From assembly GCA_039196715.1 (NCBI GenBank), contig JBCCUP010000006.1, positions 1 through 64,000 on the forward strand: 64,000 nucleotides of DNA. Direction: 5' to 3'. Below the pieces are notes generated by a model. That model ran no database searches, was not told the DNA's origin, and was given only the letters and a program-made list of their open reading frames with translations. Of the stretch, positions 8,934 to 54,980 are shown piece after piece (positions within the stretch are counted from its first letter, which is position 1; each line of letters starts with the position of its first letter). Both the position numbers and the translations under genes were made by a program. This stretch comes from Pseudomonadota bacterium (GTDB taxonomy: Bacteria; Pseudomonadota; Gammaproteobacteria; CALCKW01).

Positions 8934-8963
8934 TGGCGCATTCAGTTGACACTGATTGCGCCA
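8934..8963 (+). repeat. inverted repeat centred on a -35 box
   Basis: Two 13-base arms (8934-8946 and 8951-8963) match as an inverted repeat with one mismatch and a 4-base centre. The -35 hexamer TTGACA (8946-8951) lies exactly across the centre. The left arm begins 12 bases after the rpoC stop. It could be an operator for the rpsL promoter, or an RNA hairpin at the rpoC 3' end, although no T-run follows. Confidence 0.5.
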
Positions 8964-8975
8964 GAACCCTAAAAT
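8946..8975 (+). promoter_or_regulatory. sigma70-like promoter for the str operon
   Basis: The consensus -35 TTGACA (8946-8951) and -10 TAAAAT (8970-8975) are separated by 18 bases in the rpoC-rpsL gap. It would start transcription near 8982, about 100 bases before rpsL. Confidence 0.7.
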
Positions 8976-8989
8976 TGCGGGTTTTCGCG

Positions 8990-9014
8990 GGCCGTGTTAA
9001 CACGGCCTGCTTTT
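8990..9014 (+). terminator. leader hairpin with short T-run before rpsL
   Basis: An 18-base perfect palindrome (8990-9007, GGCCGTGTTAACACGGCC) is followed by TGCTTTT. It would form within the first 25-30 nucleotides of the transcript from the promoter at 8946-8975. It looks like a leaky terminator or attenuator; all str-operon transcripts must cross it. Confidence 0.45.
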
Positions 9015-13326: not shown

Positions 13327-13647
13327 ATGTCTGCAATGCAAAACCAGGTTATCCGCATCCGGCTCAAGGGTTTCGACCACAAGCTGATCGACAAGTCGAC
13401 GCGTGAAATCGTCGAGACGGCCAAGCGCACCGGCGCCCGCATTCTCGGCCCGATTCCGCTGCCGACCAAGAAGGAGCGGTACACCGTTCTGACGTCCCCG
13501 CACGTCAACAAGGACGCACGTGACCAGTACGAGATCCGCACGCACAAGCGCCTGATGGACATCGTCGACCCGACCGACAAAACCGTTGATGCACTGATGA
13601 AGCTCGACCTCGCCGCGGGCGTGGACGTGCAGATCAAGCTCACCTAG
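13327..13647 (+). CDS. rpsJ: 30S ribosomal protein S10 (NusE)
   Basis: Small-subunit head protein that doubles as the NusE transcription antitermination factor. It has 106 residues, three or so longer at the N-terminus (MSAMQNQ before [14 protein letters not shown]) than E. coli S10. [20 protein letters not shown] and [14 protein letters not shown] are conserved. It lies 6 bases behind tuf and is separated from rplC by 202 bases containing a promoter and a hairpin. It therefore appears to be transcribed with the str operon rather than heading the S10 operon from its own promoter. Confidence 0.97.
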
Positions 13648-13713: not shown

Positions 13714-13743
13714 TTGTCACCGGCTGAAATCGACTGCTATACT
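13714..13743 (+). promoter_or_regulatory. sigma70-like promoter between rpsJ and rplC
   Basis: A -35 TTGTCA (13714-13719) and a -10 TATACT (13738-13743) are separated by 18 bases. The expected start is near 13750, which places a strong terminator-like hairpin at the very 5' end of the transcript. Confidence 0.65.
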
Positions 13744-13755
13744 GCGCAGCTCAGT

Positions 13756-13793
13756 TGGCCCGGTTGAGTTACTCAGCCGGGCCAGCTTTTTTT
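13756..13793 (+). terminator. strong hairpin with T7 tail upstream of rplC
   Basis: The 14-base arms 13756-13769 and 13771-13784 pair throughout with a single G-U, followed by GC and seven T residues (13787-13793). Formally it is a textbook intrinsic terminator. Because it lies downstream of the promoter at 13714-13743 and upstream of the whole S10-spc block, it must act as an attenuator or be read through. The E. coli S10 operon has an L4-controlled attenuator, but before rpsJ, not after it. Confidence 0.75.
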
Positions 13794-13849
13794 ACCTGCT
13801 TCAGTCATCGCCGGTCAATCGCAATCGGTGAGGTGAATAGAGGAAAATC

Positions 13850-14500
13850 ATGTCTATTGGACTTGTCGGTCGAAAGGCCGGGATGACGCGTGTCTTTACC
13901 GAAGACGGCGTGTCTGAGCCCGTGACAGTCATCGAAGTCGACCCGAACCGCGTCACGCTGGTTCGCACGGAAGAGGTCGATGGCTACTCCGCCTACCAGG
14001 TCACCGTCGGGGAGCGCAAAGCGTCTCGATTGACCAAGCCCGAGGCGGGTCATTTCGCCAAGGTCGGTACCGGAGCCGGTCGCGGCTTGTGGGAGTTCCG
14101 CGCGAGTGCCGAGGCGCTCGAGCAGGCCGGCATCGCCGCCGGCGGGGAGCTCACCGTGAGCTTGTTCGAGGACGGTCAGACGGTTGACGTCGCTGGCACC
14201 TCAAAGGGCAAGGGCTTCCAGGGTGGCGTCAAGCGCCACAACTTCAGCATGCAGGACGCGACGCACGGCAACTCGCTGTCACACCGCGCGCCCGGCTCAA
14301 TCGGTCAGAACCAAACGCCCGGACGCGTGTTCAAGGGCAAGAAAATGGCCGGTCACATGGGTGACGAGCGCGTCACCGTTCAAAACCTCCGGATTGTGCG
14401 TGTCGACGCAGAGCGCAACCTGCTGCTCGTGCGCGGTGCAGTCCCTGGCGGCAAGCGTGGTGACGTCTTCGTCACGCCGGCCGTCAAAGCCAAAGCGTAG
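13850..14500 (+). CDS. rplC: 50S ribosomal protein L3
   Basis: Early 23S rRNA-binding protein with a loop reaching the peptidyl transferase centre. 216 residues starting [20 protein letters not shown]. The signature [20 protein letters not shown], with the Gln that is methylated by PrmB in E. coli, lies near residue 150, and [10 protein letters not shown] follows. First gene after the promoter/attenuator region, preceded by AGAGGAAA as ribosome site. Confidence 0.98.
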
Positions 14501-24059: not shown

Positions 24060-24088
24060 TTGATTAACCGGTGAATCGCCTTTACAAT
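24060..24088 (+). promoter_or_regulatory. sigma70-like promoter for the alpha operon
   Basis: TTGATT (24060-24065) and TACAAT (24083-24088) are separated by 17 bases. Transcription would start near 24095, only about 25 bases before the rpsM ATG. That leaves no room for an S4-binding leader pseudoknot like the one in E. coli. Confidence 0.6.
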
Positions 24089-24119
24089 GGGCGGTTTACG
24101 TGAATTCCGGAGTTCGGAG

Positions 24120-24476
24120 ATGGCCCGCATAGCTGGCATCAACATTCCAGACCACAAGCACTCGTGGATCGCACTCACCTCGATCTACGGCATTGGCCGC
24201 ACGCGTGCCTACAAGATTTGCGACGAGGCGGGCATCGAGCCTGCCCGCAAGATCCGCGACCTGACCGAAGACGAGGTCGAGAAGCTGCGCAACGAGGTCG
24301 CGAAATTCACCGTTGAGGGCGATCTGCGCCGCGACGTGTCCATGAACATCAAGCGCCTCATGGACCTCGGCTGCAACCGGGGCATCCGGCACCGCCGCGG
24401 CTTGCCGTTGCGCGGCCAGCGGACCAAGACCAACGCCCGCACCCGCAAGGGTCCGCGTCGGCCGATCAAGCGTTAA
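24120..24476 (+). CDS. rpsM: 30S ribosomal protein S13
   Basis: Head protein forming inter-subunit bridges. ATG 24120 gives 118 residues ([20 protein letters not shown]), the E. coli length; the frame upstream is spurious. It has the helix-two-turn-helix region [17 protein letters not shown] and the basic tail [20 protein letters not shown]. First gene after the rpmJ-rpsM promoter; the ribosome site is CGGAG. Confidence 0.97.
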
Positions 24477-54796: not shown

Positions 54797-54807
54797 CGAC
54801 GTTACGT

Positions 54808-54980
54808 TCTGCAGGGAGAGTGCTCGCACTGCGAGCCGCCGAAGGCGCAACCCGCCCGGAAACGCTCAGGTACCCGGACCTGCAGAAACAGTCGACTCTG
54901 GAGAGTGGCGCGAGACGCGCCCGCCAACGGGGTAAGGCCGCGTCAGCGGCTCAATCTCTCAGGTAACCGGACAGAGGGGC
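54808..54980 (+). ncRNA. tandem glycine riboswitch
   Basis: Two adjacent copies of the glycine aptamer pattern. The first (about 54810-54893) starts GCAGGGAGAGTG, has GCCGAAGG and closes with AACGCTCAGGTACCCGGAC and CTGC. The second (about 54895-54978) starts CTCTGGAGAGTGG, has CCAACGGGGTAAGG and closes with ATCTCTCAGGTAACCGGAC and AGAGG. It is directly upstream of gcvT, the usual target. No T-run terminator is seen before the ATG at 55031, so control at translation is more likely than at termination (inference). Confidence 0.93.

Follow-up and report, generated by a model that had tools for sequence, protein, structure and literature searches.

Control of the S10 operon by ribosomal protein L4 is known. 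In a recent review, the regulatory site of uL4 is described as not widely conserved, absent from Pseudomonas and of late gammaproteobacterial origin (PMC10931766). A second relevant system is GraL, the leader of greA in E. coli. GraL is reported to give RNAs of 37–59 nt, and about one third of the transcripts read through while about two thirds end in the leader (PMC6829880).

Locus and probable control region

The window analysed here is a stretch of 64,000 nt from a 4.95-Mb draft genome, gammaproteobacterial to judge by its relatives. Its genes run in the order rpsL, a fusA-sized and a tuf-sized open reading frame, rpsJ and rplC. Since tuf ends only 6 nt ahead of rpsJ, no room is left for a leader before rpsJ. 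The gap between rpsJ and rplC is 202 nt long. Its sequence suggests that it is the S10-spc control region, with the L4 switch at another place than in E. coli, and that many bacteria are alike in this respect. The original prediction had expected a site different from the E. coli S10 leader, and the element indeed stands before rplC rather than rpsJ. The following features are needed below.

8946–9010, + strand: counterpart before rpsL, promoter TTGACA-18-TAAAAT, hairpin GCGGGCCGTG-TTAA-CACGGCCTGC and T-rich tail (scan, pair search)
13327–13647, + strand: rpsJ (S10)
13714–13743, + strand: sigma-70 promoter TTGTCA-18-TATACT (sequence scan)
13749–13750, + strand: predicted transcription start, 6–7 nt past the -10, placed by position alone
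13753–13793, + strand: terminator-like hairpin with a tail of seven T, putative attenuator (scan, folding, congener G003)
13803–13837, + strand: hairpin homologous to the attenuator (HE) loop of the E. coli S10 leader, putative L4 operator (R1 model, covariation)
13839–13844, + strand: Shine-Dalgarno AGAGGA of rplC, 7 nt past the operator-type hairpin (from sequence)
13850–14500, + strand: rplC (L3), first gene 3' of the element

Promoter and start hairpin

The predicted promoter is borne out by the sequence. It consists of the -35 TTGTCA (13714–13719), a spacer of 18 nt and the -10 TATACT (13738–13743). The -10 is of the extended type (TGcTATACT, TG at 13735–13736) and is followed by a G+C-rich GCGC discriminator. 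This -10 region is also present in two congeners (L002 and L003). The pattern TATAMTGCGCN{0,12}GGSCC has a single other match genome-wide, a tRNA-Lys promoter; therefore, the rplC promoter resembles stable-RNA promoters. The tRNA-Lys gene, whose identity was assigned by eye (L114; C60:24389–24412 of the same genome, minus strand), has a promoter start near-identical to that of rplC, TATACTGCGCAGCTtAGTTGG.

A perfect hairpin begins within 10 nt of the -10. Its arms at 13753–13768 and 13772–13787 enclose the loop TTA, and a T run covers 13787–13793. Both the stem and the tail of seven T had been foreseen, the stem with 14 bp; the scan gives 16 pairs. The start was likewise expected just before the stem, at a distance of about six bases. 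The stem does adjoin the predicted start, with a gap of 3–4 nt (about 4 nt from 13749 to 13753). The folding energy of the hairpin is –28.6 kcal/mol, and that of the 48-nt RNA from the start is –29.2 kcal/mol (z –7.3). Thus, a sigma-70 promoter and an intrinsic-terminator-like hairpin lie within about 60 nt of the predicted start, which is the arrangement of the GraL type. The claim that every S10-spc transcript must cross the element is right for those begun at this promoter or arriving from tuf-rpsJ, and further promoters may exist downstream.

Chance tests were carried out with a pair defined as a promoter matching at least 9 of 12 positions and then a T-tailed stem within 25 nt. The plus strand of the window holds two such pairs, the present one and that before rpsL, and the minus strand holds none. 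No pair was found in 40 shuffled one-strand windows, and 400 kb sampled from this genome, with 31 promoter-like and 87 terminator-like sites, had none either. The promoter-hairpin pair is therefore confirmed as real and non-random.

An alternative structure of the antiterminator type (riboswitch, T-box) is absent upstream of the terminator, where the transcript leaves no room for one. In the Rfam scan, no family reached threshold for the element. A candidate identity, Atu_C7, was rejected, as the match was weak (19.2 bits, threshold 45). The E. coli S10 leader region itself has no Rfam match, so Rfam is unable to test membership. Elsewhere in the window, Rfam placed the ribosome binding site of the alpha operon (S4 leader) at 24068–24152 (39.5 bits, threshold 38) and a glycine riboswitch at 54803–54891 (65 bits).

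Operator-type hairpin before rplC

A second hairpin, overlooked in the original prediction, adjoins the Shine-Dalgarno of rplC. Its stem (13808–13815 with 13824–13831) has 8 pairs and its loop is CAATCGCA / CAAUCGCA. The upper hairpin of HE type with the loop UCAAUCGYAAU was found in the window, and the hairpin scores 42.1 bits with the R1 model. In an alignment of 10 rows, 7 of the 8 pairs are altered on both sides. With 31 distinct rows fitted to the model, 96% of the cells are paired, and 48 cells differ on both sides, compared with 11.1 in shuffled alignments and no more than 18 in slid controls. On its own the hairpin is of modest stability (z –1.5), which speaks against the two-module reading proposed below. 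A U tract after it is absent; GGTGAATAGAGGAAAATCATG follows 13831.

The class search over 369 genomes gave 58 model matches at E ≤ 0.05, a level at which about 18 chance matches are expected. Thirty-three stand before rplC under 18 family labels, with the model start 41–80 nt before the gene; the best 16 of the 58 are all there. Six of these 33 were in the training set and 27 were outside it. The 25 matches elsewhere were set aside, several having one common coding-like sequence, TTTGAAATCAATCGTAATTTTCGTAATGAA, as judged by eye. The phylum search at E ≤ 0.003 gave 34 match rows, of which 20 were classified, namely the window and 19 loci. Eight loci lie before rpsJ (all of family label f183), eight before rplC (f107, f189, f195 and f201) and three elsewhere. 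In E. coli and its relatives, the counterpart hairpin stands before rpsJ. The operator hairpin is by no means universal: only three of the 80 named loci are clear model matches (L055, L097 and L105).

From the homology and covariation, this lineage probably has an L4 operator between rpsJ and rplC. The expectation of L4-type control was thus right as to the type of element, which is a separate hairpin and not the sensor that had been proposed. Since the operator-type hairpin has no U tract and lies 7 nt from the Shine-Dalgarno, translational repression is suggested, and repression of rplC by L4 at this level is the likelier mode.

Copy of 23S rRNA at the same position

A different element occupies this position in 28 distinct rpsJ-rplC gaps (L094, L099, L104, L039 and 24 other loci). 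It is a copy of 23S rRNA nt ~287–345 (domain I) and ends 11–22 nt before rplC. Among the named loci, its hosts are mainly Pseudomonas, Marinobacter, Oceanospirillum and relatives. None of the 28 gaps has an HE-type hairpin alongside, and Rfam gave no match in the four of these gaps scanned (L033, L048, L094 and L109). We take nt 295–343 of 23S rRNA to be the site of L4 (and L24). Two unrelated sites of L4 type at one position support both as operators.

Conservation of the promoter-hairpin unit

The promoter with its start hairpin recurs in the rpsJ-rplC gaps of many gammaproteobacterial families; in families f107 and f189 the unit was seen by eye. Distinct operator-type gaps of at least 90 nt were sampled, and a stem was sought 3–20 nt past the -10. 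The -10 is followed by a stem in 14 of 25 operator-type gaps (0.2 expected from shuffles); among 30 gaps of other kinds, 5 show this (0.1 expected). The 11 operator-type gaps that do not have the pair count against the two-module reading. Of 28 operator-type gaps, 14 have a terminator-like hairpin upstream of the operator, where 1.6 are expected; 2 of the 45 other gaps have such a hairpin (1.1 expected). Two of those 14 stems (L140 and L142) look like other hairpins, which also weakens this reading.

The position of the stem bears on one alternative, that the hairpin is a plain operon boundary. It would then end the str-tuf-rpsJ transcripts, the S10 promoter would lie upstream of it by happenstance, and the promoter's own transcripts would read through by chance or because the polymerase is young. 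By its energy, the hairpin with seven T is a very strong terminator, and it lies 105 nt past the rpsJ stop, as a boundary would. However, the spacing from the -10 to the stem is nearly constant across many families (3–13 nt in 19 rows), and the unit also precedes rpsL; neither would be required of a boundary terminator. Therefore, a plain boundary is unlikely.

The 3' tails were counted in 16 of the 19 rows; L149 is incomplete, and L157 and L168 are near-copies of L156 and L167. On average 3.9 of 8 positions are T, against 2.07 (sd 0.34) in random 8-mers of the same gaps, and none of 10,000 random draws was as high. Five or more T are present in 5 of the 16 tails; the remaining 11 have four or fewer, a point against the two-module reading. 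In the closest congener (G003, locus L002), the stem and the seven T are kept with compensatory changes. In another genome of the genus (G002, L003), the promoter is kept, and the stem search found neither a T tract nor a clean stem, which is again unfavourable to that reading. Conservation in relatives had been put forward as a check of the element. The promoter-hairpin recurs across families as expected, while the strong U tract is patchy. Because U-rich tails are common among relatives yet frequently weak, partial attenuation or pausing appears likelier than full termination.

In L002, a boxA-like TGATCTTTAACG, identified by eye against the boxA consensus, lies upstream of the promoter. Antitermination by boxA was dropped as a candidate, for this sequence is absent from the window.

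rpsL was located in 22 genomes, and 14 of them have the unit before it (0.17 expected), or 13 of 21 besides the window; 12 of the 14 tails have five or more T. The rpsL operon has no L4. The presence of the unit there is thus evidence against the hairpin holding a sensor specific for L4, and the controller of a start hairpin common to both operons is likely general. The tails also bear on the idea that the terminal stem-loop is a 5'-end shield, which would guard the mRNA from RppH and RNase E with no role in termination. A stem so close to the predicted 5' end would suit such a shield, as would several relatives in which the hairpin is retained although its U tail is weak (among them L144 and L158). 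On the other hand, the tails are T-rich well above background, and those before rpsL still more so. A mere shield is thus rather unlikely.

Proposed mechanism

We propose that the S10-spc control region is composed of two modules, a promoter-proximal attenuator and a separate L4 operator. A probability of about 0.58 is given to this reading. In the first module, a strong sigma-70 promoter of stable-RNA type would start an RNA that opens with the hairpin and U tract. A fraction of the polymerases would halt near 13793 and release an RNA of about 45 nt. The fraction that reads through would be set by the polymerase and its bound factors (of the type of NusA, Gre or ppGpp/DksA) and not by an RNA switch. 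In the second module, L4 bound to the hairpin at 13803–13837 would mask the adjacent Shine-Dalgarno and repress rplC, and this repression would pass by coupling to the genes behind.

The original prediction was attenuation controlled by L4, in which the first 45 nucleotides would be the sensor and L4 would act on termination at 13793. The unit of promoter, hairpin and seven T does exist, and in E. coli the S10 operon is attenuated under the control of L4 (PMC10931766). However, those 45 nucleotides are the terminator hairpin plus the few nucleotides ahead of its stem, and no antiterminator or aptamer fits in them. The start hairpin is also unlike the E. coli attenuator loop, whose counterpart lies downstream. 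With the polymerase at 13793, that counterpart is not yet transcribed, so L4 bound there is unable to drive termination at 13793; this route was rejected. The unit before rpsL speaks against the sensor as well. Such a sensor is therefore quite improbable.

The two-module reading may be part of a wider picture, which we put forward tentatively, at somewhat less than even odds. L4 self-regulation of the S10 operon would be old in gammaproteobacteria, with the operator, either the HE hairpin or the copy of the L4 site of 23S rRNA, before the lead gene of the operon (rpsJ in enterics, rplC elsewhere). The str and S10 operons would share a promoter-proximal attenuator, with read-through set by a common polymerase factor. 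If so, both operons would be tied to one growth signal. The promoter-proximal hairpin, present in both r-protein operons, points to an attenuation step that they share. The data also suggest that the uL4 site has been looked for before the wrong gene, as an E. coli-like operator stands before rplC in many families and a 23S copy in Pseudomonas and relatives. In the literature searched, including the available part of PMC7247131, no description was found of a leader between rpsJ and rplC, an L4 site there, a separation of operator and terminator, a 23S copy in Pseudomonas or a common attenuation step for rplC, although an earlier description is possible.

Comparison with known systems

The E. 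coli S10 leader, with the L4-controlled hairpin E and hairpin D, belongs to the same operon. Its loop and upper stem are identical to those of the window (AUCAAUCGUAAU), and its promoter TATAATGCGC is similar. However, it sits before rpsJ, whereas the window element sits before rplC. The lower stem of the E. coli hairpin is not clear in the window operator, which also has no U tract, unlike the E. coli attenuator; the terminator-like hairpin stands apart from it, where the RNA begins. In E. coli, hairpin D, which L4 control requires, lies upstream of hairpin E. In the window a different hairpin, the promoter-proximal one, lies upstream, with no sequence likeness by eye. The unclear lower stem and the want of a clear counterpart of hairpin D count against the two-module reading.

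The rpsL-leaders of Naville and Gautheret (2010) likewise place a terminator before a gammaproteobacterial r-protein operon. They stand before rpsL (and before fusA in streptococci), and the main text does not mention rplC or rpsJ (PMC2965389). The rimP-leader, described in the same paper, is also a terminator with a conserved stem and no visible antiterminator, for which NusA was proposed as a partner. It carries a GGGc...gCCC motif before rimP-nusA, whereas the window has stems of GGCCC type in another operon (PMC2965389).

GraL combines a sigma-70 promoter with an intrinsic terminator in the first 60 nt, as the window does. In GraL, 18 nt precede the terminator and the regulated gene is greA (PMC6829880), whereas in the window about 4 nt precede the stem and r-protein genes follow. 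By analogy, GraL would be the closest studied case for the start hairpin.
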